Shown here in pieces: positions 19,545 through 35,004 of a stretch of DNA of 64,000 nt. Positions within the stretch are counted from its first letter, which is position 1, and each line of letters opens with the position of its first letter. The notes beneath the pieces are model-generated. The model saw only the letters and a list, made by a program, of their open reading frames with translations, did no database searches and had not been told where the DNA came from. This stretch comes from Hallerella porci (lineage in GTDB: Bacteria > Fibrobacterota > Fibrobacteria > Fibrobacterales > Fibrobacteraceae), in the NCBI RefSeq assembly GCF_003148885.1, contig NZ_QGHD01000002.1, positions 109,323-173,322 of the forward strand, written 5' to 3'. Made by a program: the position numbers and the translations under genes.

Positions 19545-19580
19545 ATACATCCTGGGTTGGGTAACTTTAGGAGATTCGAA

Positions 19581-21770
19581 ATGAAAAAATTAACCAAGTT
19601 CCTTTGCGTCGGCCTCTTGGCATTAGCTTCTACCGCTTTTGCCGATGCGACAAGCGCAAAACCTCTGCGCGTGGGTCCTGTGCAAAATTACGGCGCACTC
19701 GGTACCGACGGCGGAAAAATCGTAAGCCTAGTCAACGGCAAAGAAGTAATGCTCCGCGGCGTAAGCCTTTTCTGGTCCGATGCATTAGGCATTCAATACT
19801 ACAATTCCGAATCGATTTCTTGGGCAGTCAAGAATTTAGGGATTGATGTGTTCCGTTTTGCGATGGGCATTCAATACTACAATTCGCAAGGAAACGCCTC
19901 AGAACCGATGGATGCTAGCTATTCTTATGTTGGCGCCCCCGAATCTTATCTCTCTAAATTAGATCAGATGGTGCAAGTGGCAATTGAAAACGATGTTTAC
20001 ATTATCGTGGACTGGCACAGTCACCGCGCCGAAAATGAGCAAGCTTTAGCGGTTGATTTTTTCAATAAGATTGCGCAGAAGTATGCAAATATTCCGAATG
20101 TGATTTTTGAAATCTATAATGAACCGGTCAATACAGCGTGGAATACGATTGTCAGCTACGCCAATACCGTTTCTGCAGGAATTCGCAAGTACTCTAAAAA
20201 CTTGATTTTAGTCGGCACTCCAAGTTGGTCACAGCTCGGCTCTTATGGTGGCGTCACCGCCAACAATGTGGCGTATGTTTTCCACTTTTACGCGGGCACT
20301 CATAAAGTCGGTTCCTTTGGTTCACGAATTACCGCCGCCAAAAATGCCGGCAATGCGGTCTTTATTTCGGAATGGGGCACAACGAACGCCGACGGTGATG
20401 GAGAACCCGATGCCAGCGCAACTCAAGATTGGTTCCAATTTATGGAAACAAATCATTTGAGCAACTGTAACTGGAGCTTCCGCAATTATACAAGCACTAT
20501 CGACAACAAAAGCGAAAAATCCGCCATGTTTGACGGCAGCGAGATTTTGAATACTCAAGAAGCTTTGGCGAATGCAAAATACACCACTTCGGGCACGCTT
20601 GTCAAAAACTATTTGACATCGCACACTAGTTCTTGGGCAGATTCTTTACTCGCCGGGAAGACTGCAGGTTCTTGCCACTTTGATTCCAAAACAGTCAAGC
20701 AAACCGCAGGTTCTGTAACTTTACCAGCCGGTTGCACCTACACTTCGAGCAATGAATCGGCAGTCACCGTTTCGGGCGGAACCGCAACCATTCTCGATGC
20801 GGGCTATGCCATCCTCACCGGAAACGATGGTTCTCAATCCATCATCACGGTGGAAGCGGAACCGGAACAAAATTCGGGAATCGTCAGCTTCCTTTGCCGT
20901 TACGGCGGAAACTGCTCGCAAGGTCATTCTGTAAAAAATTATACCGGAACAAATCCATTAGAAACAATTCTTACAGTCAGTACAACAACAACCCAAAAAG
21001 GAACTTTATCTTTTAAAGCTTTAAATCCAGAAATCGTCAAAGTAAAAACGGGAACTTGCACTATCACCCAATGTTATAGTGCACAAAATAAAACCGTTAC
21101 TTTTGCAGAATTTACAGGCGTCTATGGTGACGGAAAAATCGTCATTACTGCGCCCGCTGTTACCGGCTACCGCGCACTCAACGAGACCATTACAGTTTCC
21201 TATAAGAAAGGCCTCTACAAACTGAGTTCCTATTTCAAAAATTGGACTCTTGCTCTCGGAGCTCTTTCCAGAGAAAAAGTGCTTCCTGATGTTGTCAATC
21301 AAACAGTCCCTGTGACCTATACTTATAACGGTCAACCGTCTACTCCGTATTTGACGAAAGTCGGCACCGCAATTCAAGCCGGAACAGAAAATGCAATTGT
21401 GCTGATTAACGCCTCTGCCCCCGGCGATGACAATTACGAACCGTTAGATCAAACGATTACTGTCGTCGTCGGCGATAGCACTCTTGCGGTCAACAAAACC
21501 GAATTCGATAACGCTCCGATTCTTGCAAAAGCAAAAGTCGCTCCGTTCCGCACTCAAATTCAAGAAAACGGCCTTTTGCTGCAAGTTCCGCAAAGCGGTT
21601 TTGTTTCGTGGGCAATTTACACCCCCGCAGGCAAAGTCATCGCAAGCCAAAAGCAAAACCTCTCCGCCGGCTCGCACTTAATCTCGCTCGAAAACCTCCC
21701 CACCGGCTCTTATATGATGCGGGTCAAGCAAGGCAGCAACCAGTCTAATTTTCACTGGAATAAGCAATAA
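19581..21770 (+). CDS. GH5 endoglucanase with Ig-like repeats and sorting tail
   Basis: A 729-residue secreted GH5 cellulase. Signal peptide about 1-22; catalytic domain about 35-315. The acid/base Glu181 is in FEIYNEP and the nucleophile Glu264 in VFISEWGT. The block VDWHSHRAENE is conserved in the GH5_2-like group. Residues about 370-640 look like several bacterial Ig-like/MBG repeats (SAVTVSGGTATILDAGYAIL, NYEPLDQTITVVV). A sorting-type tail covers about 650-729. The start at 19581 has AGGAG 9 bases upstream. The heptapeptide GIQYYNS occurs twice, at residues 70 and 96, with a 20-base identical DNA repeat. Likely a cell-surface or secreted endoglucanase cotranscribed with the GH8. Confidence 0.92.
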   Translation: MKKLTKFLCVGLLALASTAFADATSAKPLRVGPVQNYGALGTDGGKIVSLVNGKEVMLRGVSLFWSDALGIQYYNSESISWAVKNLGIDVFRFAMGIQYYNSQGNASEPMDASYSYVGAPESYLSKLDQMVQVAIENDVYIIVDWHSHRAENEQALAVDFFNKIAQKYANIPNVIFEIYNEPVNTAWNTIVSYANTVSAGIRKYSKNLILVGTPSWSQLGSYGGVTANNVAYVFHFYAGTHKVGSFGSRITAAKNAGNAVFISEWGTTNADGDGEPDASATQDWFQFMETNHLSNCNWSFRNYTSTIDNKSEKSAMFDGSEILNTQEALANAKYTTSGTLVKNYLTSHTSSWADSLLAGKTAGSCHFDSKTVKQTAGSVTLPAGCTYTSSNESAVTVSGGTATILDAGYAILTGNDGSQSIITVEAEPEQNSGIVSFLCRYGGNCSQGHSVKNYTGTNPLETILTVSTTTTQKGTLSFKALNPEIVKVKTGTCTITQCYSAQNKTVTFAEFTGVYGDGKIVITAPAVTGYRALNETITVSYKKGLYKLSSYFKNWTLALGALSREKVLPDVVNQTVPVTYTYNGQPSTPYLTKVGTAIQAGTENAIVLINASAPGDDNYEPLDQTITVVVGDSTLAVNKTEFDNAPILAKAKVAPFRTQIQENGLLLQVPQSGFVSWAIYTPAGKVIASQKQNLSAGSHLISLENLPTGSYMMRVKQGSNQSNFHWNKQ
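19788..19885 (+). repeat. 20-base direct repeat inside the GH5 gene
   Basis: GGCATTCAATACTACAATTC occurs at 19788-19807 and again, identical, at 19866-19885, in the same frame. Both copies encode GIQYYN. Confidence 0.9.
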
Positions 21771-22246: not shown

Positions 22247-22280
22247 AAAAAAATTCCCAGCTTTTGCTGGGAATTTTTTT
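22247..22280 (-). terminator. Terminator of the six-gene surface operon
   Basis: The stem AAAAAAATTCCCAGC / GCTGGGAATTTTTTT ends only 4 bases from the GH18-like stop. It is strong in both directions. Confidence 0.9.
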
Positions 22281-22283
22281 CTT

Positions 22284-23339
22284 TTACTTTTTCTTCGGCT
22301 TGTAGTTCACATCGGGTCTCAGTTCTAGTCCGATGGTGACTAACAGCGAAACAATCGGTTCCGTGTGATCTTGCGAAAGGTCGTAAGCCGCAACGCCTGC
22401 GTAGCCTTCGTTTTTCACCGTTTCTGCGAGAGCTTTTACCGAAGGAATTCCCATAAAGACGATGGATTCCATATCGCTGACAGCAACTTCGGATTTCGAG
22501 GCTTCATCAAAGGTCACCTGATAATCCGGCGTATCAAACTTCGCCATCAATTCTTTATACGAAAGAATGCCTTCGTTACCGCTACCGATACCGGTTTGCG
22601 CTTCGCCCAAACCTTTGGCTCCTGTAAAGCTTTTACCATAGAAAAGCACAACCGGAACGAGTTTATCTTTTTCAACGCCCTTACTCGAAAGAGTATTCAT
22701 CGCTTCTTCAAAAACGGTGACGCTCTGATTCGGCTTTAATTCCGAAGATTCTTCGGTCATTTGATCCGGCACAAAGACGGTAATGTAATCGGCACGGTTC
22801 AAGGCTTCGGCGCTATAAGCGTCTGCAGATGATTGCGGATAAGCGGTCACCGCAAGTTCTTTATCGCCCAAAGCTTCCTTCAAAGCATTGACCATTTTGC
22901 CAAAAGCTTCGGCATTTTCGGCGGTAAGATTTTGCCAATCCAATTCGGCACCCGCAGCACCATTTTCCGAAATCCAAGAAGCCGCATTGTTTGCAAAAGT
23001 CGAAAGCATTTCATCGGAGCCTGCAATTTCTGCTAAAGTTCCTTCTTGTTCCATGCCACCGATCGAAACAATCAGCTTTACCTTATTTTCATTCGAAAGT
23101 TTGGCGAGTTCCTTAAAGTTTTCCGCATCGTTTTCATCGGCAAAGGCGAGAGAACCATCCGAAGAAGGCGAAAGCGAAACATAGTGAATATGAGTCACCA
23201 TATTGTAGCGGATATCTTTTGGCGCAAATTGCGAATATTGGCTCCAATACGGGAAATATCCCACGACTTTATCAGCTGCAGCATTCGCAAGTGCGGCGCA
23301 ACCGAAGACCAAAGAAAGAGCGATCCATTTTAAGTTCAT
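22284..23339 (-). CDS. GH18-like protein lacking the catalytic Glu
   Basis: A 351-residue secreted protein of the GH18 (chitinase) fold. Signal peptide about 1-21; TIM-barrel strands include KVVGYFPYWSQY, KLIVSIGG (the SxGG motif, residues 92-95) and ELAVTAYP. The active-site motif DGxDxDWE reads AGAELDWQ at residues 129-136: the first Asp is Ala, the second Glu, and the catalytic Glu is Gln (codon CAA on the coding strand). It should not hydrolyse chitin and may bind a glycan instead. Start at 23339 is set by GAGG upstream and the signal peptide; a longer frame to 23456 only overlaps the neighbour. Last gene of the six-gene operon, 8 bases after the lipoprotein stop. Confidence 0.85.
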   Translation of the reverse strand: MNLKWIALSLVFGCAALANAAADKVVGYFPYWSQYSQFAPKDIRYNMVTHIHYVSLSPSSDGSLAFADENDAENFKELAKLSNENKVKLIVSIGGMEQEGTLAEIAGSDEMLSTFANNAASWISENGAAGAELDWQNLTAENAEAFGKMVNALKEALGDKELAVTAYPQSSADAYSAEALNRADYITVFVPDQMTEESSELKPNQSVTVFEEAMNTLSSKGVEKDKLVPVVLFYGKSFTGAKGLGEAQTGIGSGNEGILSYKELMAKFDTPDYQVTFDEASKSEVAVSDMESIVFMGIPSVKALAETVKNEGYAGVAAYDLSQDHTEPIVSLLVTIGLELRPDVNYKPKKK

Positions 23340-23347
23340 AAAAGACC

Positions 23348-24229
23348 TCATTCCGCAATTTCGCGGACAATGCCAGCGGCATCTACGCAATAAGTTTTCG
23401 TCGCCGGATAAACTTCTTCCGCTTGAATCGGATTCATCGATTCGGCATCCGAGCAAAGGCGATAAGCCCAGCCGTGCGTTCTACCATAAAATACATACTG
23501 CAAGCTAATCGCTTCCCAATCCACCGGAATCGCAGCTAACGCAGCCAAATCCTCAGTAGTCGTTTTGAAGTTGAATTTCAGCAGTTGTTTTTTCTTATCC
23601 GCCGGAATTCCGCCTAAAGTAACAGTTGTATCAATCGTAAACTTCTCAAGATTTTCTTGCGTCGTAGCCCCATGAAGTTTTACAACCGAATAAGCAGAAT
23701 CGTCAATGTCATACGAAACAGGAATCATTTTCGTAGCATCTACGGAATCCTTGATTTCGCCAGAAACATTCGTGATTTTGCCTTCTGCGCTGTAAGTCAG
23801 TTTGACATTTAAGACTTCTATTGGCTTTTTGGCAATAAGGTCGGCAACTTTCAAAGCTAAAGTATCCAATTTGAAGGTTGTGTCCACGACAGTCATCGCG
23901 GTCCAATCATCTTGCCACAATTCTTCGGAATAACCGGCATATAGCGGATTCGCATAAATTTGATGCAATGTCGCGGTATCGCCAAAGAACATCGCTGTAT
24001 CCACTGCAAAAGTCAACGAATCGACTGTTGCGGCATCATTCAGCGCCGAAACATAGTCTTGAATCTGCAAGCTGCGAAGTGCCGGATGCAAATTCATATA
24101 AGTTTCTGCTTGGAAGTCTTTCGGGTAATTGTCTTCATACGCTTCCGAAGAAGAAACATCCAACGAGGAGCAAGCGGTGAACGCAAAGGTTCCCAAAGCT
24201 ACTAAAAGAGTTAAAGATTTATTCATCAT
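23348..24229 (-). CDS. Lipoprotein of unknown function in the surface operon
   Basis: A 293-residue lipoprotein. The signal ends in a lipobox FTAC with Cys20, followed by SSLDVSSSEAYED. The remainder is acidic, with mixed alpha/beta character, and contains repeated TVDSLTFAVDTAMF and KLDTLALKV-like strands and DSxDAT sequences. I recognise no family. It lies 11 bases downstream of the third barrel gene and 8 bases upstream of the GH18-like gene, so it belongs to the same transcript. It may be the surface or periplasmic partner of the barrels; this is inferred. Confidence 0.75.
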   Translation of the reverse strand: MMNKSLTLLVALGTFAFTACSSLDVSSSEAYEDNYPKDFQAETYMNLHPALRSLQIQDYVSALNDAATVDSLTFAVDTAMFFGDTATLHQIYANPLYAGYSEELWQDDWTAMTVVDTTFKLDTLALKVADLIAKKPIEVLNVKLTYSAEGKITNVSGEIKDSVDATKMIPVSYDIDDSAYSVVKLHGATTQENLEKFTIDTTVTLGGIPADKKKQLLKFNFKTTTEDLAALAAIPVDWEAISLQYVFYGRTHGWAYRLCSDAESMNPIQAEEVYPATKTYCVDAAGIVREIAE

Positions 24230-24240
24230 AGTCGCACCTC

Positions 24241-26406
24241 TTAGAATGTTACCGTCACGTCGGCCATAATCACATTCTTATCGATCGAAAGTTCATCATG
24301 CACTTCTGTCGTTACCGCCGTAGCCGGGTCGGTGACAGAGCGGTTGAATTTCACTTTATCGGTCAAGAGTCCGTATTGAATGGAAAGGTAAGATGCCGGA
24401 GCAATTTTGACGCGCGGACCCACGCGGAGAAGCATTTCTTCGGTCTTGGTAATCATCGCCGAAGAACTGATTACGAGCGGGTTACCGTATTCCATCTTGA
24501 ATTGTTCAAAGCCTGCGAGGAAGCCGATCGGGCCCCAAATTTCGGCAGAAACACCCGCCATAATGCGGTCGGATTTCCGCTTAAAGTAAGCATCTTCTTC
24601 GGAATGCGCAAAGGATCCTTGCACGAAGACGCGATTAAAATCGGTGTCAAATTGTTTGAGCACTTGATCCACGCGAACGCCGAGACCCACAGCGTATTGC
24701 GTGTACTTGTTATCAATCGCATCTTGATTGTATTGCGAGAAGCGCACATTCACATTCACCGCAGCATTCCAATCGCCATCAAAGGCAACATCAAAGCCTT
24801 TGCGGTCAGGGGTTGCAATGCCATACGGAAGAGCCATATCCAAAGAGCCATCCATCAAGAAGAGCGCTTCATTCAAATCCAAACGCTTAATGGTGTTGGC
24901 GTTGTAGCCATTGCGATAGGTATGCACATTCTTGTAGTTGTTATACAAGCGGGAATACATATAATCCGATTCACCATTATTGGAAGACAATACATTCGCC
25001 TTCGACGAAGATTGAATGTTGCTTGCGTTATACGGATTGGAGTTATAAACTTGGAAGTAGAGATTTTCAAGGCTAGACATGCCAAAGGTCGAAACCAAGC
25101 CCGAATAAACCGAATCCGCATAGAGAGCGTTTGCGTTCAAAATCACAGCATTTCCGCGATAAGCCGGAGCCGCTGCCATTTCAGACCAGAACTTTTCATC
25201 GTTCTGCAAATAGCGTGCGCGCAATTCCAAGTTGAAGTTTTCGATACTCGTCTTCACATAAGGCGCGATATAGAAGCTCTTGCCGTCGTCATCCGCAAAA
25301 TCTTCCGAAACGGTCACATTTTCATCTGAAGCGATTTTCTTGACATAAGCAATGGAATCCATCGCTCCACTTGCATTTGGAATGCGTCCTCTTTGAATCA
25401 CATATTCGTAATTCGTCTTGGTTGCCGAATGATACAAATCCGCATTCCACCAAGACATGGCAAATTCACCCGTTAAACCGAAGGTTACCGGCAAATCGGG
25501 GAGAAGTTTCTTGGAATCAAAGCCAAATTCTCCCGAGAAGACTTGGTTTTCGTCCAAGACGACAGAATCCGCAAGATCGACGTCATGGGCTAAGAAGCTC
25601 AATTCGCGGTCAAAGACGTAAACATAGTTTGCGCCCACATGAGCACCGTAAGCGTCAACGCCTAAGCGAGCACCGACAAAATAACGATCCGCCCAGTCAA
25701 AGTCAAAGAAGGATTCGTCATTTTTCTTCGAGATATTGCGCAAGCGAGCGCCCGTTGCTTGGAACATCACATTGTCCACAGCACCGAGATTTCCGCTGTT
25801 ATAGACGACATTCAAGCCTTGTAAAAGGCGATTGTTTGTCGTATCCAAGTTGCGCTTTTCCATCGCTTCTGCACGGGCAGCAGCAAAAATTTCTGGTTCT
25901 TGCAAAAAGTTCGGCTGCGGCGTGTATAAGGTGTACGGAGAATAACCGACACGCATGTAACCCAAGTTGAAGGAAACGTGCTTATTGAGAATTAAACCAT
26001 CGTAAGAGAACCAATGTCCGATAATCGGGTTATTGTTCTCTTCGTATGCGCTCTGCCAATCTTTGTGCAAACGAAGTTCAACGCGAGCTTGCGTTTCGGA
26101 ACTCGGACGTGCGGTAAAGACCAAGTTTGCGGTTGTATAAGCCTGCGTTTCTTGTTCCGGTGAATTCGAGCTAAATTGATCCGACTTTGCCATCGAAGTC
26201 AAAACGCCCGCTTTGACGGATCCGTTCACGCGCAAACCGAGAACAGCATCATTCAAAGAATCCAGTTTTTCAAACAAAGACTTTTGTTGTTCTGCAATAG
26301 GCTGTTGTGCCGAAGATTCCACTTCGGGCTGCGCAAATGCGGTAGCCGCCGAAAGGAAGAGCACCGAAGAGAAGCCGAGCAAGTTTTTCATATTCAAGTT
26401 CTTCAT
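24241..26406 (-). CDS. Outer-membrane beta-barrel protein (third barrel of the operon)
   Basis: A 721-residue protein with a signal peptide (about 1-25, ending AFAQ), a short predicted coiled coil (SLFEKLDSLNDAVLGL), and then many alternating amphipathic strands ending in Phe (VTF). This is the plan of a large outer-membrane porin. Its region YTLYTPQPNFLQEPEIFAA, followed by MEKRNLDTTNNRLLQG, aligns by eye with the next gene (YTPLTLFSPDVEILYEPLIF, LLDGNQRNLQG), so the two are paralogs. GGGAGG lies 9 bases before the ATG. Likely transports or binds glycans; substrate unknown. Not a TonB receptor: no TonB box or plug seen. Confidence 0.78.
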   Translation of the reverse strand: MKNLNMKNLLGFSSVLFLSAATAFAQPEVESSAQQPIAEQQKSLFEKLDSLNDAVLGLRVNGSVKAGVLTSMAKSDQFSSNSPEQETQAYTTANLVFTARPSSETQARVELRLHKDWQSAYEENNNPIIGHWFSYDGLILNKHVSFNLGYMRVGYSPYTLYTPQPNFLQEPEIFAAARAEAMEKRNLDTTNNRLLQGLNVVYNSGNLGAVDNVMFQATGARLRNISKKNDESFFDFDWADRYFVGARLGVDAYGAHVGANYVYVFDRELSFLAHDVDLADSVVLDENQVFSGEFGFDSKKLLPDLPVTFGLTGEFAMSWWNADLYHSATKTNYEYVIQRGRIPNASGAMDSIAYVKKIASDENVTVSEDFADDDGKSFYIAPYVKTSIENFNLELRARYLQNDEKFWSEMAAAPAYRGNAVILNANALYADSVYSGLVSTFGMSSLENLYFQVYNSNPYNASNIQSSSKANVLSSNNGESDYMYSRLYNNYKNVHTYRNGYNANTIKRLDLNEALFLMDGSLDMALPYGIATPDRKGFDVAFDGDWNAAVNVNVRFSQYNQDAIDNKYTQYAVGLGVRVDQVLKQFDTDFNRVFVQGSFAHSEEDAYFKRKSDRIMAGVSAEIWGPIGFLAGFEQFKMEYGNPLVISSSAMITKTEEMLLRVGPRVKIAPASYLSIQYGLLTDKVKFNRSVTDPATAVTTEVHDELSIDKNVIMADVTVTF

Positions 26407-26422
26407 TCTTTAGTCCCTCCCA

Positions 26423-28642
26423 CTAAAATTCCACGTTGATGGAGGCTTCGACAATCGCTTGGCTAAATTCATGTTTGAATTTACCCGATGCATCGGTTGT
26501 CACATCGTAGTAAGAAGGCAGGTTGTAAGGCTGTTCAAAATTGCCACTCGCATTATCAGCCACCAAAGCTGCGGTATTGTATTCGTTCTTTACAGAAACT
26601 CTTCCGTAATTGATCGAAAGCCAAGCGTCCTTTGCCAAGGTATAATCGAGACCGACCATCCACTGCATTTGCTTGCCGCTCATCAACGGAGCCTTCAAGC
26701 CAGTCGAAAGTCCTTCATAGGTATTGTAATCGGTCTTGATGTATTGGAAGCCTGCGGTAAAGCCGAGACGCGGCAAGTATTGCACATACAAACCCGCATT
26801 GATAAAGTCACTCTTGAGTTCTGCGGTTCCATCGGTAAGACCTAAATCACCCCAACCATCGGTATCGATTTTACGTTCGGAATGCTTATAGGAGCCCGAA
26901 ATTTCGAGCGGTTTCTGGAAGCCGAGCATCTTGAACACATCGACCTTTGCGCCACCGCCAAATTCCAAATACTTCGCTTCTTTGTAACCGCTCAACGCAG
27001 AAACCTGCATAAAGTAGCTACCCATCGCTTGAACTTCGGCGTAATCTTTCCAGTTGAACTTTAAGTTGCCGCGTCCACCTTGACGGTTCGAAGTCGCAAG
27101 ACCATTCGGGAGAGAAAGTTGTAGCGCCGGATCGCTCATCTGTTCAATTAAAGCGAGCTGAGCGCGGGTATAAACATTCGACTTCCAAGAGCTCTTGTTG
27201 AACGGAGCAATGTTATAGCTCTTGCTCTGTCCGCTGCTCAAAGCGCCGTCGTCCGTTCCCAAGGTGCGAGCGACCGGGGAGAACTTCGGCGAATAGTTAT
27301 AAAGAGCGTCAAAAGAAGAGTAGAGCGGCGAATTGACGCCATACTTAATCGTTTCGCCATCGATATCGGAATTCAAAATGCGGCGAGCGAAGAATTTCGG
27401 CGATTGAGCGAGGTTGTTAAACCAGTTGCTGTCGTTTCGGACGATGTCCATACCGAGAACAACTCCCCAATCCGATTCCATCTTGTAACCCACATTCATG
27501 TTGACCAAGAGAGCGGAACCATTCAGAGTTTTCTTTTTTGCGACATCTTGAGAAATGGCATTGCCTTCTTCGTCGACAGCAGGAAGTCCCGTTGTCATAT
27601 CGATGACCGGAACGCCTTCGTGCTTGTAAGTTTCGTCCGAAGAATAAGCGTATTCTGCCACGAGATCCAAGACTAAGTTCTTATTGCCGAGAATGCCTGC
27701 GACATCACCGCCCACGCGACCGCTCACGATTGTCGTCTTTTGCGGATCGATTTCGAACGGGTTAATGTCTTGCATTTCATAAGGATCGCCGACAAAGAGA
27801 CCTTGGTGACGGTAAGTATAAGAACGGGAATCTTTGTTATCGAAGATATACATCGGAGTCACGCCGACATATAAATTCTTGTCCATCGGAAGGAGTTCCA
27901 AGTTACCCGCAATCACCCACTTGTCCATATTCGACGCTTGCGAAGCACCCGCAACCGAATCATTCGGAAGGATGTTGCCTTCTGCAGCGGAAAGGTCGAG
28001 GACCGATGTGCGATTTAAGCGAGCGGCCAACGCTTCGACGCGAAGTTCACCCACCGCACTCCCGAAGTAGTGACGGAATTGAACATTCGCACCTTGTAAA
28101 TTGCGCTGATTGCCGTCCAAAAGTTCCTGCGATTCCGCCATATGACGCTTGCGCGCAAAAATGAGCGGTTCATACAGAATTTCGACATCCGGAGAGAAGA
28201 GGGTTAACGGCGTATATTGCTGACGGAAATCACCGACGACCCAGTAGAAGTCTTTGCCGATATTCCCTTCGACATTTAACCAGCCAACCGAAAGAGTCTT
28301 CGACGCCGAAGAGAAGTATTCTTGCATGCCAGCGCCCATCCGGAGCATCACATTGGCACGCACATTTTCGAACGGACGGAAATGAAAATCAATATCGGCA
28401 TTTGCCATTTCATTGCGTTCCGTTTCCGGCATATCACTTGTGCCATTCGGATCTTGATCCGTATCAAAATACGAAGTCTGCGCAATCGCACGAATCTTTC
28501 CGCCGATTTCCACCCCGCGTTTGGCGTTGATGGAATCTACTTTGGCGTTTAACTTTTCTTGAGTTTGCCATTCTGTAGCCGCAGGAGCGGTCACAGCAGC
28601 AGCCAGGAAAGCGATCAGAAACTTATTCATATTCTTTTTCAT
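26423..28642 (-). CDS. Outer-membrane beta-barrel protein (second barrel of the operon)
   Basis: A 739-residue protein with a signal peptide (about 1-20), a short helical stretch (TQEKLNAKVDSINAKRGVE) and a long strand-rich region ending in NVEF. Terminal Phe and alternating aromatic residues mark an outer-membrane barrel. It is paralogous to the 24241 gene by several shared blocks and by the same helix-then-barrel start. GGAGG precedes the ATG by 9 bases. It lies 14 bases from the upstream barrel gene and 16 from the downstream one. Function inferred from the operon. Confidence 0.78.
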   Translation of the reverse strand: MKKNMNKFLIAFLAAAVTAPAATEWQTQEKLNAKVDSINAKRGVEIGGKIRAIAQTSYFDTDQDPNGTSDMPETERNEMANADIDFHFRPFENVRANVMLRMGAGMQEYFSSASKTLSVGWLNVEGNIGKDFYWVVGDFRQQYTPLTLFSPDVEILYEPLIFARKRHMAESQELLDGNQRNLQGANVQFRHYFGSAVGELRVEALAARLNRTSVLDLSAAEGNILPNDSVAGASQASNMDKWVIAGNLELLPMDKNLYVGVTPMYIFDNKDSRSYTYRHQGLFVGDPYEMQDINPFEIDPQKTTIVSGRVGGDVAGILGNKNLVLDLVAEYAYSSDETYKHEGVPVIDMTTGLPAVDEEGNAISQDVAKKKTLNGSALLVNMNVGYKMESDWGVVLGMDIVRNDSNWFNNLAQSPKFFARRILNSDIDGETIKYGVNSPLYSSFDALYNYSPKFSPVARTLGTDDGALSSGQSKSYNIAPFNKSSWKSNVYTRAQLALIEQMSDPALQLSLPNGLATSNRQGGRGNLKFNWKDYAEVQAMGSYFMQVSALSGYKEAKYLEFGGGAKVDVFKMLGFQKPLEISGSYKHSERKIDTDGWGDLGLTDGTAELKSDFINAGLYVQYLPRLGFTAGFQYIKTDYNTYEGLSTGLKAPLMSGKQMQWMVGLDYTLAKDAWLSINYGRVSVKNEYNTAALVADNASGNFEQPYNLPSYYDVTTDASGKFKHEFSQAIVEASINVEF

Positions 28643-28656
28643 TGTTTACGCCCTCC

Positions 28657-30876
28657 TTAGAACCAGACCTTGGTTTCTGCAGCGACATAATGCGAATGCC
28701 AATCGTTGACAGAAATCACTTCGTCGCTATGAGTCATCCACTTGTAGCGCACATGCAAACCGGCGCGGTCTGCAAAGTCCCAGTCAAACCCGATACCGAT
28801 TGCGGTTTCGAGATAATTGATCGGTGCATAAGCGAAATAAGAAGTGGAAACTTCACTATACATAGAGGAGGTCTTAGAAAGGTTATTGCTTACGCTATAG
28901 CTCGTATAAGCATTCTTCGAGCGGAACATTTCAATACCGAGAAGCCCCACCATATGGAAGGTCGGCGTTACCGCAATAGACGGTTCAAATTGGCCGTAGA
29001 AGCTCCAGAGAAGCATGTCTTTTTGATCTTCGCTGTAAGCAATCGGAGCAATCGTCGTCGAAATTCCCGAAAGGGCTGCGTAGCCGGTCATCATCACAGT
29101 GCGTTCGGTATTGAACCAGTGACCGATATCGTAACCGCCCATCACAGAAACATAAGAGGACCATTTTGCGTGGCTCGGGACTTCACCCTTCGCAATCTGT
29201 TCGCCGTTTTCGTAAGCGGTGAAAGATTCCCACATTTCCCAAGTTCCACCGTAGAGGCCGCCGCGTTGACGGCGAAGCTTGATGCCGGTACCCGGTTCGA
29301 GAACACCAGTACGAGCGACATAGCCCGAAGCCTTCGGATCCGCATTACCCGAGTCTGCCCAGAAAATCGGTTTGTGCTTTGTCCAAGAATTGGTGCTTTC
29401 CCACATGTTACGACCATTCAAGCGGTAGTTGAAAACGATGACATCGTTTCCTTCTTCAACTTGACGATGTTGACCGTATTGGAAGTCGAAATAGCCACGG
29501 TTAAAGGTCGGTTCCAATTTGAAGTTCAAGCCCATCATATTCGGTGAATAGCGGAGAGAACCTGCATTCAAGTAAGTTTCATCTTTGCGCCAACCGGTAA
29601 AACGCGACGGGTTGCTGAGAGAATACGGAGAATAGAAATCCTTCGGAAGGTAAATTCCTTCGATAGTCATCGGCCAGCCTTCGATGTACTTGCTCTGCGC
29701 TTTAATGTAAACGCCGACCTGCGGATTCGCCACAGAAGAAGAATAATCATCACGCGTGTAATTTCCCGATTCCGACTTGTAGAAGTTAAGAGAATCGGTG
29801 ATGCTCAACGCCACATCGGCCATGAAGTAGAGTTTCGGAGTGATGTTACCCTTAATATCAATAGAAGCAACATGCGTATTCAAAAGCATCGGTTCGTATC
29901 CCGCAGTCAACCATTGATCGCGGAATTCGCTTTCGTAAATAATGCCTTTGTCAAAGACGACGCCCATATAGTTCAAACCGAGGGTCATCGTTTCCATCAG
30001 TTTGTCTTTGGCGATACGAGCGTGGTAAATGGAACCGCGCATATCGTGCAAACCGTAAGTTTCGAGTTCGCCCGGCTGACCTGCAAAAAGACGCAAACCA
30101 TCGCGCGTACCCATGTCGGCGTCCATCGGCTGCGACACCATGAACTGCGCCTTCATATTATACGGCAACTGGTAAACGTTTGCAAAGATACCGCCAAAAG
30201 AACGGTTCGTCCAGAATGCACGACCGCCTTCTTTCACCGGCTTAAAGACTTTTTCTTTATAGTAAGTACTGACAGTCTTTTCGTCCTCGAAGAGTTCGTA
30301 CTGCCAAGCAAAACGCGGAGCGGTTTCGCGTTCCCACATGGTGAGAGGCGAAGAATTTGCCCAAATCACACCGCCTGCGGTAATGTAAGCACCAAAGACA
30401 CCTGCGCGAATATCGGCACCCACATTAAATTCTTCGTCGATTGTCGAAGAATAATAGTCGGTCGAATGATCGTAAAGAACGCGTTCATCGTAAGTCGGCA
30501 CTGCGGTCGGCTGCGTTGCATACTTGTTGCCGAAAGTTCCCGAAAGATCAAATGGGAATGCGAAGTTCGTCCACAATGTCATGTACGAGTTCGGCATCGC
30601 AACGATGTTCGCTTTGAAAATAGCGTCGATCGCTGTGCGCGCTTTATCGCTTCCAAATGCGGGCGCAGTATTGGAATAATGGAAATTCTTGCCGCGGAAT
30701 GCCATAAAGCCCGAGACCGCCACCGGCAGATCGTCCTTGCCGAGAAGCGTTGATTCCATATTGCTAGAAAGCGTATCCAAAGAGGCGTGAATCGAATCCA
30801 ACTGCAGCTGGGTCGGGAGAGCCCAAACCGAGGCTGCGCAAGAAGCGATTAAAAAAGAAGAAACTAGTTTACGCAT
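28657..30876 (-). CDS. Outer-membrane beta-barrel protein (first barrel of the operon)
   Basis: A 739-residue protein with a signal peptide (about 1-19), a predicted coiled coil (LQLDSIHASLDTLSSNMES), and a strand-rich body rich in Trp and Tyr ending in KVWF. It is more diverged from the other two barrels but keeps the plan and length. AGAGGG precedes the ATG. Being the first barrel gene after the CIA30-like gene, it is probably the best expressed of the three. Glycan transport or adhesion is inferred. Confidence 0.75.
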   Translation of the reverse strand: MRKLVSSFLIASCAASVWALPTQLQLDSIHASLDTLSSNMESTLLGKDDLPVAVSGFMAFRGKNFHYSNTAPAFGSDKARTAIDAIFKANIVAMPNSYMTLWTNFAFPFDLSGTFGNKYATQPTAVPTYDERVLYDHSTDYYSSTIDEEFNVGADIRAGVFGAYITAGGVIWANSSPLTMWERETAPRFAWQYELFEDEKTVSTYYKEKVFKPVKEGGRAFWTNRSFGGIFANVYQLPYNMKAQFMVSQPMDADMGTRDGLRLFAGQPGELETYGLHDMRGSIYHARIAKDKLMETMTLGLNYMGVVFDKGIIYESEFRDQWLTAGYEPMLLNTHVASIDIKGNITPKLYFMADVALSITDSLNFYKSESGNYTRDDYSSSVANPQVGVYIKAQSKYIEGWPMTIEGIYLPKDFYSPYSLSNPSRFTGWRKDETYLNAGSLRYSPNMMGLNFKLEPTFNRGYFDFQYGQHRQVEEGNDVIVFNYRLNGRNMWESTNSWTKHKPIFWADSGNADPKASGYVARTGVLEPGTGIKLRRQRGGLYGGTWEMWESFTAYENGEQIAKGEVPSHAKWSSYVSVMGGYDIGHWFNTERTVMMTGYAALSGISTTIAPIAYSEDQKDMLLWSFYGQFEPSIAVTPTFHMVGLLGIEMFRSKNAYTSYSVSNNLSKTSSMYSEVSTSYFAYAPINYLETAIGIGFDWDFADRAGLHVRYKWMTHSDEVISVNDWHSHYVAAETKVWF

Positions 30877-30885
30877 AAAACCCTC

Positions 30886-31620
30886 TTAAATCGCATTGCG
30901 GAAAGGATAGTGAGCCGGACCTTCGTAAGGTTTGCCGTGCTTCTTAATCACGATATCGTCAATCCACACTTTGAAGGATTCGTTTTCATCCTTGCGGACT
31001 TCCAAGCGGAATCCTTTGAAGTTTGCCCAACCAAACGGGAGCATGACTTCGCGAGTATTCTTGGCATCCCAATACACACCGGTCATCCCGAAGAGTTTGA
31101 GAGGAATGCTGAAGTGTTTCCATTCGGTGGTGATTTCGCCGAGACTCTTGGAGCGGAGCTTTACCTGCATCGATTCGCCGCCGGTCTTCACCCCGTCGTC
31201 CACGAGCACGAACAGAGCGTTTTCGCCGCCCTTTTCACCTTTAATCCAAAATTCCAAGACGCCTTCTTCGAGATACGGAGTCAGGTCCACCGAGCCCGCA
31301 ATACAAATTGCCACACCCGAATAATCGCTCGCGATGAGTTCGATTTCCATCGAGAGAGCGCCTTCCATCGCGTACTTATCCGTGAGGATAGGTTCGGGGT
31401 TTTCACGCGGATATTGATAAGTATATCCACCGCCACGAGGAATGGCTTCGCGCATAACGACCGTCACCACATCTTTATCCGGGCGGAACGGCTTTGCCGG
31501 TTTCATGATAAAGCGAGATTCATCGCGGTTGCGGTAATCACCGAAACCAGCCGACGCGAAAGACACCAGAAGAAGAGTCGCAAACAGACACTTCAAAATG
31601 GGTTTTTGTATTGCATTCAT
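30886..31620 (-). CDS. Secreted CIA30/CBM11-like protein, first gene of the surface operon
   Basis: A 244-residue protein with a signal peptide (MNAIQKPILKCLFATLLLVSFASA) and a single beta-sandwich of the galactose-binding-like type. Features are VDLTPYLEEGVLEFWIKG, TTEWKHFSIPLKLFG and, near the end, FKVWIDDIVIKKHG, the pattern seen at the end of CBM11 and CIA30 domains. It would bind a glycan in the periplasm or at the cell surface. Start at 31620 is set by GGAGAATT upstream and the signal peptide; an ORF to 31698 has no RBS. It leads the operon, 9 bases before the first barrel gene. Confidence 0.78.
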   Translation of the reverse strand: MNAIQKPILKCLFATLLLVSFASAGFGDYRNRDESRFIMKPAKPFRPDKDVVTVVMREAIPRGGGYTYQYPRENPEPILTDKYAMEGALSMEIELIASDYSGVAICIAGSVDLTPYLEEGVLEFWIKGEKGGENALFVLVDDGVKTGGESMQVKLRSKSLGEITTEWKHFSIPLKLFGMTGVYWDAKNTREVMLPFGWANFKGFRLEVRKDENESFKVWIDDIVIKKHGKPYEGPAHYPFRNAI

Positions 31621-31926
31621 AATTTTTAAAATTCTCCAAAAATCCAGTGAGCTACAATATAAATAGATTTTCGCCATTTCACATTCGGCGTTATGCAAAA
31701 AAAGAATTGCATTCTACGATTTTTCGGCGGGAAAGCCCAACTTTTGTGCGGAGATTTTCTTTTGTTAAGAAGAATTTACAAGAATGAACTATTATTAAAT
31801 TTTCGTTAAATTTCCGTTTTCTGTGATTTTCCTCGCTATTTTTAATTTTCGTTAACATTTTCCCGTTTTTTGACAAAAAATCTAATTTTAGCGCAAATTT
31901 GCTTTCACATTCCCAAGGAATGCCCG
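31621..31926. promoter_or_regulatory. Divergent intergenic region between surface operon and GH5 gene
   Basis: A 306-base A/T-rich region with no gene. It must hold the promoter of the six-gene operon (reverse) and of the GH5 lipoprotein (forward). TTGACA at 31870-31875 could be a -35 box for the GH5 gene, but no clear -10 at normal spacing is seen. AAGGAAT precedes the GH5 ATG. Confidence 0.4.
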
Positions 31927-33105
31927 ATGAAAAAACTTTTCCTCCCCGCTCTTTTTGCTGCAGCGTTTATCGCTTGTTCTAGCGATGGTGGCGCCACCCA
32001 AGCTTCGCTTTCTTCTGCTTCGACTTCGACGAGTTCAGGAACAGCTGAATTCGTCCCCGTTCCCGTGGATTATTCTGCAGGACGTGCGATGAATGCGCGC
32101 TTAGGCAGAGGCATAAACCTCGGCAACTCTTGGGATTCGGGCGATTCGACAGGCGCACCCGATTGGTTTAATTTTGGCTTTGGCGTCGACTTGGATGATG
32201 GTTGGGGCAATCCGATTGACGATGGCGATTTTAAACTTCTCAAAGATGCGGGATTTAATTCCATTCGCCTTCCGGTGCGCTGGCAGCAAAATTCGAATAT
32301 TCTCACTCACGAAATTAACGCTGAACGCATGGCGGGCGTGATTCAAGATGTCAATTTAGCGATTGAAGCAGGACTTGCTGTGATTATGGATTTCCACTGG
32401 TATAAAGAAATCGAAGAAGCGGCGAAAATGTATCCGACCGATCCGAGCCTTTGGGCGATGCACAAGGAACATTTCCTCGCGTTGTGGGCGCAAGTCGCAT
32501 CGGTTTTCAATAATTATCCGGACTCACTTCTCGCCTTTGATATTTACAATGAACCGGCGATGAAAGCGGAATTGATGAACGATTTACTCCTCAGCGCTTA
32601 CCAAGTTATCCGTGCGGCTGCGCCGAATAAAACGATTATTTTCCAATCAAATCAAATGGCAAAATTCCATCAGATTGGCGAATTGCGCCTCCCGCAAGAT
32701 GGAAACATCATCTTCTCGGGGCATTATTATGAGCCTTATACATTCTCACACGAAGGCCACGGTTATAAATGCGTCGGCGATAATTCATACGCCAATACCG
32801 CCAAGCAAGACTTTACAAAATACGTCGCCCTCGCGACGCAATACTATCCCGATGTCAACGGCGGACACATTCCGATGAATATGGGCGAATTTGGCATTGC
32901 CGCAGGAAGCCGTAGCAGCTGCGGTTCCGATGGTCCAAGTGATTTGAGATGGGCGTTGTGGAATAAAAAGACTGTCGCCGCTGCCGAAGAAGCGGGATTT
33001 AGTTGGCATTATTGGGGCTTTACGAAAGTCGGCGGCTTCGAAGCTTACGACCGCGAGAATGCAAAATGGTATCCGGGAGCGCGCGAAGCGTTCTTCCAAA
33101 ATTAA
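31927..33105 (+). CDS. GH5 cellulase, lipoprotein
   Basis: A 392-residue lipoprotein GH5 enzyme. The lipobox FIAC has Cys17, followed by a Ser/Thr/Ala-rich linker (residues 18-45) and the catalytic domain. The start of the fold is RGINLGNSWDSG, the acid/base Glu209 is in FDIYNEP, and the nucleophile Glu321 is in NMGEFGIAA. The FHW block (residues 156-158) and HYYEPY are also conserved. It cleaves beta-1,4-glucan, probably cellulose or its oligomers. The start at 31927 is set by the lipobox and AAGGAA upstream. Its stop overlaps the convergent lpxA stop by 4 bases. There is no sorting tail. Confidence 0.92.
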   Translation: MKKLFLPALFAAAFIACSSDGGATQASLSSASTSTSSGTAEFVPVPVDYSAGRAMNARLGRGINLGNSWDSGDSTGAPDWFNFGFGVDLDDGWGNPIDDGDFKLLKDAGFNSIRLPVRWQQNSNILTHEINAERMAGVIQDVNLAIEAGLAVIMDFHWYKEIEEAAKMYPTDPSLWAMHKEHFLALWAQVASVFNNYPDSLLAFDIYNEPAMKAELMNDLLLSAYQVIRAAAPNKTIIFQSNQMAKFHQIGELRLPQDGNIIFSGHYYEPYTFSHEGHGYKCVGDNSYANTAKQDFTKYVALATQYYPDVNGGHIPMNMGEFGIAAGSRSSCGSDGPSDLRWALWNKKTVAAAEEAGFSWHYWGFTKVGGFEAYDRENAKWYPGAREAFFQN

Positions 33106-33860
33106 CGAATCATCGGAAAATTTTCGGCGGAAAAAAATTGGCGAATGGCGAAGTCTTCGGATTTCGCCATTTCTTGTGCGAGTTCTGCAAAGGGACGCCG
33201 CGAATGAAAAAGTTCGCGGTAAATTTTTTCGATTTGAATGATGCGCTCTTCGGGAAATTCTTGCGGGAAACGGCGCAGCGCGTGCAAATTGACCCCAGCA
33301 AAACGCAGCGGATTTCCGAGTGCTTTGACATACGGCGGCACATCGCGATCGACTTTGAGAGCTGCCCCGACGAAACTGTATGCGCCGATGCGGCAATTTT
33401 GCGAAACTCCCGCAGTCCCGCCGAGATTTGCGTAATCGCCGATTTGAACATGTCCCGCGAGCTGCACACCGTTTGAAATGACAACGCCTTTTCCGATTTG
33501 ACAATCATGCGCCACATGCGAATAAGCCATGATGAGAGTATCGTCGCCGACGAGAGTTTTCCCGGTAGAAGCCGTGCCGCGGTGTAATGTTGCATATTCG
33601 CGGATAATGCAACGCTTCCCGATTTCGAGAACGGTTTCTTCGCCGTTAAATTTTAAATCTTGCGGAATTTGTCCTAAAATTGCGCCGTCAAAAATCTGCG
33701 ATTCCGCTCCGATTTTTACATGAGAAAGCACGCGCACGCGGGATTCTAAAATCACATTTTCCCCGATTTCGGCAAAGTCTTCGACGATGCACCACGGGCC
33801 AATGCAGGCACTGGCTGCGACTTTGGCGTTCTGGCTCACATAAGCGGAAGGATGAATCAT
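33102..33860 (-). CDS. lpxA: UDP-N-acetylglucosamine acyltransferase
   Basis: A 252-residue LpxA, the first enzyme of lipid A synthesis. It moves a hydroxyacyl chain from ACP to UDP-GlcNAc. The left-handed beta-helix hexapeptide repeats fill residues 1-180 (IHPSAYVSQNAKVAASACIGPWC start), and the catalytic His lies in AYSHVAHDCQIG. The C-terminal helices (LRRFPQEFPEERIIQIEKIYREL) are typical. Start at 33860 (MIHPSAYVS) matches the family; an ORF to 33905 adds 15 odd residues. It shows that the host is Gram-negative. It lies away from other lipid A genes. Confidence 0.94.
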   Translation of the reverse strand: MIHPSAYVSQNAKVAASACIGPWCIVEDFAEIGENVILESRVRVLSHVKIGAESQIFDGAILGQIPQDLKFNGEETVLEIGKRCIIREYATLHRGTASTGKTLVGDDTLIMAYSHVAHDCQIGKGVVISNGVQLAGHVQIGDYANLGGTAGVSQNCRIGAYSFVGAALKVDRDVPPYVKALGNPLRFAGVNLHALRRFPQEFPEERIIQIEKIYRELFHSRRPFAELAQEMAKSEDFAIRQFFSAENFPMIR

Positions 33861-33894
33861 AAGTTTGCCAAATAATAAATATATTTTCCGCGTT

Positions 33895-35004
33895 ATGCTC
33901 AGCATTTGTGTTATCGGAGTCCTTTCGGCGCTTTACGCTGCCCTCTTTTTGATTTTTTCTTTAGGGCTTATCCGCGCAAAAAAAGGCGAGAAAAATCCCG
34001 AGAAACTGTGGACTGTTTCGGTGATTGTCCCGCTACGCAACGAAGAAGAACATGCGAAGCGCACATTAGAAGCATTGAATGCGCAAGATTATACGGGCAC
34101 ATGGGAAGTCATCTGCGTCAACGATCGCTCTACCGATAATACCGCAAAAATTCTCGAAGAATTTGCCGCGACTCATCCGAAGTTTTCGGTGGTGCATGTT
34201 CCGATGGATGCGCCATTTTTAGAAAGTCCGAAGAAGCGCGCCCTTGAAACGGGATTTCATGCTGCGAAATATGAAATTTTGATGACGATGGACGCCGATT
34301 GTATTCCGCCCAAAGGTTGGATTCGTTCGATGGCGGGACGCTTCCGCGGAAACATCGCCATTGTGCAAGGGCCAAAGAAAAATTCAGGTTCGCCGGGAAT
34401 TGTCCACGCTTTTCAGAAATTGGAAACTCTCGGTTATACATCGATTGAAGCAGCGGGTTTTAGCTTGGGAACGCCGATGGTCGCTAGCGCAGCGGCTCTC
34501 GCTTACAAGAAAGATTTATTCTTCCAAGTCGGCGGCTTCGGCGATTTGGTGCATCTTTCATCGGGCGATGATGATATGCTCGTGCACAAAATGATCCGCG
34601 AACCGAATGTCGGATTCTGCTATAACTTGGACAAAGACGCCGTCGTCGAAACCGCTCCGGTCGATACCTTCAAAGGTTTGCTCAATCAGCGGGCGCGTTG
34701 GTCGAGCAATGGCACAAGTTACACGAATCATTTTTACACTCTCTTTCTCACGCTGATTTATACGTTTTATGTTTGGCTTTTTGTGTCGCCGTGGTTAGCA
34801 TTCCTTTTTGATTTTCCGTGGACATGGTTCGTAATTCCCTTTGCGATTAAAGTCGCTGTGGATACTCTCTTTTTAACAATCAGCGCCATTCGCCTTGGCG
34901 AAAAGAAATTATTGTGTGCGCTCCCGATGACAGAACTTTTGCAAATTCCCATTATCACGGTCGCCGTTCCTCTTGGCATTTTCAAATTATTTAAGTGGAA
35001 ATGA
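33895..35004 (+). CDS. Membrane glycosyltransferase, family GT2
   Basis: A 369-residue GT2 enzyme. One N-terminal membrane helix (residues 4-26) precedes a GT-A domain: VSVIVPLRNEE, VNDRSTDNT, MDADC (the DxD motif) and the QRARW acceptor motif. Two or three C-terminal membrane helices follow (FYTLFLTLIYTFYVWLFV, WFVIPFAIKVAVDTLFLT). It likely adds sugars to a lipid or an envelope polysaccharide; the donor and acceptor are unknown. The start could also be TTG at 33865; ATG at 33895 is preferred as it opens the membrane helix. It is divergent from lpxA. Confidence 0.86.
   Translation: MLSICVIGVLSALYAALFLIFSLGLIRAKKGEKNPEKLWTVSVIVPLRNEEEHAKRTLEALNAQDYTGTWEVICVNDRSTDNTAKILEEFAATHPKFSVVHVPMDAPFLESPKKRALETGFHAAKYEILMTMDADCIPPKGWIRSMAGRFRGNIAIVQGPKKNSGSPGIVHAFQKLETLGYTSIEAAGFSLGTPMVASAAALAYKKDLFFQVGGFGDLVHLSSGDDDMLVHKMIREPNVGFCYNLDKDAVVETAPVDTFKGLLNQRARWSSNGTSYTNHFYTLFLTLIYTFYVWLFVSPWLAFLFDFPWTWFVIPFAIKVAVDTLFLTISAIRLGEKKLLCALPMTELLQIPIITVAVPLGIFKLFKWK

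Follow-up and report, generated by a model that had tools for sequence, protein, structure and literature searches.

A conserved operon of three barrel-type proteins among cellulase genes of Hallerella porci, a candidate outer-membrane route for cellulose fragments

How do fragments of cellulose cross the outer membrane in the Fibrobacterota? The mechanism of cellodextrin transport has been called unknown (PMC6851124). The question is raised by an operon of Hallerella porci that lies among cellulase genes in a window of 64,000 nucleotides, the whole stretch analysed here, to which all coordinates refer. Six open reading frames (ORFs) on the minus strand at 22284-31620 encode, in order, a secreted stand-alone CBM30 protein, three putative outer-membrane barrels (A, B and C), a predicted lipoprotein and a protein resembling glycoside hydrolase (GH) family 18. 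The initial annotation called this set a cellulose-adhesion or oligosaccharide-uptake assembly; uptake has since gained indirect support from the ATP-binding cassette (ABC) importer, CBM30 cellulase and GH94 genes that accompany the barrels in relatives, and pure adhesion less so. Since genes for ABC importers lie beside the barrels in distant relatives, the set probably represents an unrecognised outer-membrane route for cellulose fragments. We conclude that, on balance, the operon is probably an outer-membrane uptake module for such fragments, that is, a plug-free multi-barrel polysaccharide-utilization system.

All six ORFs were confirmed in place on one strand, with intergenic gaps of 9, 14, 16, 11 and 8 bases by coordinates, within the range of 8-16 bases first described. 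Gene order was compared across 65 named Fibrobacter and Fibrimonadaceae loci, all taken from a single GTDB genome scan; the genomes are slightly fewer than the loci, because L019/L035 and L059/L064 are pairs that share genomes by their titles (L and G numbers are our handles for loci and genomes). The genes for CBM30, barrels A, B and C, and GH18 stand in order on one strand in 55 of the 65. Nine of the other ten loci are interrupted by a contig end, and the tenth (L028) has barrels A and B in one frame; the order is thus kept in all 56 uninterrupted loci, which bears out the synteny that the initial annotation proposed as a check. The L028 frame (L028:9611-14515), from one metagenome-assembled genome, is a single open frame of 1635 aa and may be a natural fusion or an assembly error; a frame of 1638 aa in G136 probably represents the same contig. 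A lipobox-bearing ORF lies between barrel C and GH18 in 54 of the 55 complete loci by pattern, and in the 55th (L066) by eye, where the Cys is preceded by Trp-Gly. A divergent GH5 gene lies less than 900 bases from the CBM30 gene in 53 of the 57 named loci whose sequence extends far enough to show it. Mean pairwise identity within the Fibrobacteraceae is 86.6% for the CBM30 protein (56 copies), 69.2% for barrel A (57), 59.0% for barrel B (54), 53.4% for barrel C (55), 33.5% for the lipoprotein (53) and 65.6% for GH18 (54), compared with 72.5% (46) and 81.1% (44) for the neighbouring LpxA-like and GT2 proteins. By these figures, the CBM30 protein is unusually fixed and the lipoprotein unusually free.

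The first gene (30886-31620, minus strand, 244 aa from that ATG) was initially read as CIA30/CBM11-like. Its product matches the CBM30 family PF21582 (64 bits against a cut-off of 27, 1.9e-17), and its CBM11 match falls below that family's cut-off, so a carbohydrate-binding module stands and its family is corrected to CBM30. It also matches PDB chains 2c24 and 1wmx, which we take to be CBM30 (6e-6, partial coverage), and is akin to the CBM30 region within a Cel51A-like protein described below (40% over its residues 59-221). Barrel A and CBM30 occur together across the phylum: 145 of 167 genomes have a barrel A match and 147 have CBM30, with both in 143, neither in 18 (two of them, G039 and G166, deduced) and discordance in six, giving agreement in 161. 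Barrel A occurs without CBM30 in G010 and G027, and CBM30 without barrel A in G059, G107, G110 and G165. The CBM30 search matched none of 14 control genomes. The genomes are related, so the 167 are not independent points; counted by genus, 31 of 40 have barrel A and 30 of 40 have CBM30.

Barrel A (28657-30876, minus strand, 739 aa) has a signal peptide, a short N-terminal helix and a C-terminal WF; barrel B (26423-28642, minus strand) is also of 739 aa and barrel C (24241-26406, minus strand) of 721 aa. Barrels B and C are clearly paralogs by sequence (BLASTP 3e-32, hhalign 1.9e-42), which bears out the initial claim that at least two of the three are. Shallow comparisons found no relation of barrel A to the other two, and the view that it is unrelated was overturned by phylum-wide profiles (42 barrel A rows, 46 barrel B/C rows), which match with an hhalign probability of 96.5 and an E-value of 7.9e-10; two reversed and ten shuffled controls reached at most 0.4. 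Against the 40 barrel B-type rows or the six barrel C rows alone, the probability is 83.9 or 79.8, and it is chiefly the joined profile that carries the link. Common descent of all three is thus shown, for barrel A only via deep profiles, and the doubt that the barrels might be unrelated does not hold. The terminal Phe noted initially is present in 257 of 259 barrels of at least 550 aa in the loci examined. Barrel A of the window shares 89% identity with its counterpart in Fibrobacter intestinalis ATCC 43854; protein searches with the three barrels gave 671, 422 and 499 matches, of which the best 120 were listed. Many barrel A frames in genus g6 of the same family measure 834-884 aa, compared with about 750 aa, suggesting an extra N-terminal part.

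The sizes of 721-739 residues claimed initially hold, and the barrel fold is predicted. The model of barrel B (mean predicted local distance difference test score, pLDDT, 59.5) contains 24 strand elements and finds outer-membrane barrels as its nearest Foldseek neighbours, and that of barrel A is poor (pLDDT 46); both were built from shallow alignments (31 and 29 rows) preceding the phylum-wide ones. Fold matches of such low-confidence models indicate "outer-membrane barrel" and no particular family. The alginate exporter AlgE is the top match of the barrel B model and ranks high for barrel A (identity of 8-12% and TM-scores no higher than 0.52 among the rows examined), and CymA and chitoporin are also among the structural matches. 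In Pfam, barrel A has no match at E <= 1, barrel B matches OMP_b-brl below the cut-off and barrel C has a weak, meaningless match; none of the six window proteins matches an NCBIfam family over its cut-off. Across the phylum-wide sets, OMP_b-brl is matched in five of 42 barrel A and eight of 46 barrel B/C members, and Porin_4 in two of the latter 46. Pfam gives no Plug or TonB-receptor match in barrels A, B or C, and no TonB plug family was matched at E <= 0.01 in any of the 88 barrel proteins scanned phylum-wide. SusD (PF07980) has no match in the whole genome of the window, and the control matched in Bacteroides, so the initial statement that SusC/SusD is absent agrees with both searches. 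The single TonB plug protein of this 2.85 Mb genome (G000:C2:42026, L145:5733-7838) has as scanned neighbours Lcl_C-like, ORF6N, propeller-like and unassigned proteins and an aldo/keto reductase, with no carbohydrate-active enzyme among them.

The predicted lipoprotein (23348-24229, minus strand, 293 aa; lipobox-like ...FTAC/SS) has no Pfam match at E <= 1. The last gene (22284-23351, or to 23339, minus strand) would overlap the lipoprotein gene by 4 bases if it starts at 23351. Its initial assignment to GH18 is upheld (PF00704, 6.7e-38), and by motif it is predicted to be no working chitinase: it has DWQ in place of DWE, and PDB chitinases (match 5xep) align their catalytic Glu with its Gln. 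This Glu of the DxxDxDxE motif is absent from all 60 operon GH18 copies examined (59 different, L007 and L035 having identical proteins), which have DWQ in 56, DGG in three and DWV in one; Glu also replaces the Asp two positions before the DWQ site. The GH18 and CBM30 parts are probably glycan binders. GH18 genes have been taken to signal that members of the whole phylum could degrade chitin (PMC4704652), a reading that the operon GH18, lacking its catalytic residue, qualifies.

The neighbourhood of the barrels changes outside the family. We compared 34 loci of distant phylum members, picked among the barrel A matches listed (29 two-barrel, five three-barrel). A CBM30 protein or a CBM30-containing cellulase was labelled in 30 of the 34, and the remaining four are truncated on that side. 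The cellulase, which adjoins the two-barrel version outside the family, is mostly of about 1050 aa and matches CBM30, CBM11 and, weakly, GH79n/arabinofuranosidase families. We call it Cel51A-like because the copy in the window's genome, 49% identical, has two CBM30 stretches and CBM11; papers give a CBM30/CBM11 layout with GH51 for Fisuc_3111 (FSU_0382) of Fibrobacter succinogenes S85. At least two different ABC importer genes lie beside barrel A in 21 of the 34 loci (16 Opp type, five Mal type), divergent from it in L110, L117, L118 and L129 and co-directional in the other 17. Each ABC set is complete or contig-cut, and the Opp-type sets have a family-5 binding protein where complete. A GH94-type gene is present in eight of the 34, in L113 on the other strand. 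In L105 all of these elements share a strand: SBP_bac_5, two permeases, two ATPases, barrels A and B, the Cel51A-like protein and GH94. The initial remark that no ABC transporter is present holds for the operon itself but misleads where the barrels as a family are concerned. The simplest reading of barrels found together with an importer, a phosphorylase and an enzyme that acts on one polysaccharide is that they provide the outer-membrane step in the uptake of that polysaccharide.

Three of the distant loci (L097-L099) represent a chitin-type version, with barrels A, B and C accompanied by GH20, GH18 and CBM30 where not contig-cut; their GH18 proteins keep DWE in six of six. Genomes G156 and G158 each carry both the chitin-type and a Mal-type (cellulase/ABC) version. 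A tree of 54 barrel A proteins, with a midpoint root for drawing only, separates two clades with support of 100/100: clade 1 holds the Fibrobacteraceae and Fibrimonadaceae three-barrel operons together with L112 and the chitin-type loci, and clade 2 the two-barrel loci. L112, L113 and L115 form long branches, and the program warns that long branches may meet. On this tree the window operon is related, as a three-barrel form, to the two-barrel set that is linked to importers, with L097-L099 as chitin-linked cousins. One speculative reading is that the substrate switched between chitin and cellulose while GH18 was retained as a binder. L112 (G041, of the same order) has three barrels and CBM30 and no cellulase label; its neighbours include an uncharacterised protein of 693 aa and one of LPG_synthase type, so it may act on a different substrate.

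An uptake module of this kind could work as follows, on the inference that the barrels act as channels for a beta-1,4-glucan, that the encoded proteins assemble into one complex and that transport is inward. The GH5 and GH8 enzymes would cut cellulose outside the cell, perhaps after secretion by a type IX route; the GH18-like protein and the lipoprotein would catch chains, and these two and the CBM30 protein would keep the glycan close to the pore. The barrels, predicted to be plug-free, might then let through cello-oligosaccharides or single chain ends, and CBM30 would sit on their receiving or docking side. In the periplasm, Cel51A (of the CBM30-CBM11-GH51 type and encoded elsewhere, at L142 in the window's genome) would trim the chains, and an Opp-type ABC importer and a cellodextrin phosphorylase would complete uptake. 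An Opp-type importer cluster is present elsewhere in the same genome (L144), and in relatives the genes for barrel passage, Cel51A trimming and import with phosphorolysis lie together. Cel51A (Fisuc_3111) and the GH94 enzyme of S85 are assigned to the periplasm (PMC4668043), and Fisuc_3111 and the GH18 Fisuc_1530, the latter listed as cellulose-binding, are among the genes with high and stable expression (PMC6204037). A stronger version, in which the barrels, CBM30 protein, lipoprotein and inactive GH18 form one machine that threads single cellulose chains to periplasmic Cel51A, strikes us as unlikely; it would be a third way to eat crystalline cellulose, beside free enzymes and cellulosomes. 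Among nine window proteins scanned, none matched cohesin or dockerin; the genome was not searched for them.

Several observations weigh against uptake. The importer linkage sits in the other barrel A clade, and the window's clade has chitin-linked cousins, which limits the claim. None of the six operon genes encodes an ABC importer. Fewer than two ABC genes were found, within the stretch read, in 13 of the 34 distant loci: in all five three-barrel loci (L097, L098, L099, L112, L119) and in eight of the 29 two-barrel loci (L107, L109, L111, L113-L116, L126), of which L113 contains a single long ORF that matches a binding protein. Neither modelled barrel has a high-confidence structure, and a PDB profile search with the phylum-wide barrel alignments gave no match at E <= 1. 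At G000:C1, L142:2763-6737, in the window's genome, the genes that come after Cel51A encode two Fib_succ_major proteins whose starts are lipobox-like and which are not barrels; these ORFs (652 and 668 aa) had been considered as a second barrel pair and match no barrel profile. A TonB route, for which the single TonB plug protein would be the candidate in the window's genome, has been proposed by others and may yet serve for cellodextrins. In S85, the CBM30 protein Fisuc_1525 is reported as unique to the extracellular medium, to which GH18 Fisuc_1530 is also assigned (PMC4668043), and in another study the CBM30 protein is placed in the envelope on all substrates including glucose (PMC4619616); extracellular occurrence and presence on glucose argue against a simple periplasmic, cellulose-induced role. 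Envelope GH18 FSU_2012 is given as slightly lower on cellulose (-1.30; PMC6851124).

The operon might instead be an adhesion platform, in which the barrels serve as anchors and CBM30, the lipoprotein and a GH18-like lectin tie the cell to cellulose with no transport. CBM30 itself and the loss of the catalytic Glu from every operon GH18 would suit such a role, as would two published statements: S85 GH18 Fisuc_1530 (FSU_2012) is tabulated as the cellulose-binding "CBP-9" (PMC3079729), and S85 is said to need adhesion in order to grow efficiently on cellulose (PMC6204037). Adhesion, however, leaves unexplained why barrels in relatives are linked to ABC importers and to GH94, and three large barrels would be a costly anchor; we hold it to be rather unlikely. 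The same linkage is left unexplained by a docking or export platform, on which the CBM30 domain would bind the barrels and hold Cel51A-like cellulases at the membrane. CBM30 is the partner of barrel A in both clades, alone or within the Cel51A-like cellulase, and lipoprotein-like N-termini were seen in 15 of 21 long Cel51A-like proteins by eye (17 by pattern), which fits docking; against it, one paper describes CBM30 and CBM11 as cellulose binders in F. succinogenes, and we rate docking as distinctly improbable. That the operon serves surface polysaccharide or the lipid envelope in a Wzi-like manner, with the cellulases as chance neighbours, seems very improbable indeed. One listed barrel A relative (P0123) has a UniRef name that begins "Capsule assembly pro..." (name incomplete, no Pfam support) and an lpxA-like gene lies close by (33102-33905, by our own reading of the sequence), but barrel A is without a Pfam match at E <= 1, no capsule family appears in 42 barrel A proteins at E <= 0.01, and distant relatives have cellulases, chitinases and importers at its side.

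The flanking cellulases described initially are a GH8 enzyme (17334-19544) and a GH5 cellulase (19557-21770), both on the plus strand and each with a below-cut-off match to Por_Secre_tail, a weak type IX sorting tail, and the divergent GH5 cellulase (31870-33105, plus strand) that is the conserved upstream neighbour. Directly 3' of the GH18-like gene lies a terminator-like hairpin (22247-22280; 15 pairs plus A and T runs, by consensus match). It was listed on the plus strand in the terminator scan and, being near-symmetrical by our own reading, could serve both strands. The scan found nine terminator-like sites against a shuffle mean of 13.5 (promoter-like sites, 12 against 12.3), so this hairpin speaks by its own strength alone. 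A 731-aa protein at 36841-39036 has, by eye, a beta-propeller look and a type IX-like tail. In S85, the counterparts of the four envelope genes would be Fisuc_1526-1529, judged by label and order in papers rather than by sequence, as S85 is absent from the 65 named loci, and the operon thus points to four concrete genes. A search of main texts, mostly of openly available papers, gave none that names Fisuc_1526 to 1529, FSU_2008 or FSU_2009.

The uptake module can be set beside several known systems. In SusC/SusD loci of Bacteroidota, as here, an outer-membrane barrel, a lipoprotein and glycan-binding proteins are encoded with glycoside hydrolases, and paralogous sets follow the substrate. The operon works like such a polysaccharide-utilization locus but is not of the SusC/SusD type: no plug or SusD was found, each locus has two or three homologous barrels, CBM30 is the partner and relatives carry an ABC importer. 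Carbohydrate porins such as CymA, chitoporin and ScrY link a plug-free barrel to sugar import, as is predicted here, but are single, smaller porins in ABC or sugar operons, unlike the sets of about 640-960 aa proteins here, which have no sequence match to PDB chains. AlgE, to which the barrel B model is nearest, passes a polysaccharide through a plug-free barrel; it differs in its low identity and TM-scores and in that it exports. GH18 chitinases and their lectin relatives, such as the inactive chitinase-3-like protein 1, are alike in family, but the operon GH18 has DWQ, is operon-linked and, by report for S85, binds cellulose. The PopA superfamily (PMC12228718) includes outer-membrane proteins also found in Fibrobacter (FSU_2404, FSU_0230); its 16 strands and radial oligomers set it apart from the present barrels by description only. 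The operon thus resembles porin-plus-ABC operons, yet its barrels with their regular CBM30 partner match no Pfam or NCBIfam family over cut-off. In the stronger, unlikely version with chain threading, the operon would belong to a phylum-wide, TonB-independent class of polysaccharide-utilization loci, with cellulose and chitin versions.

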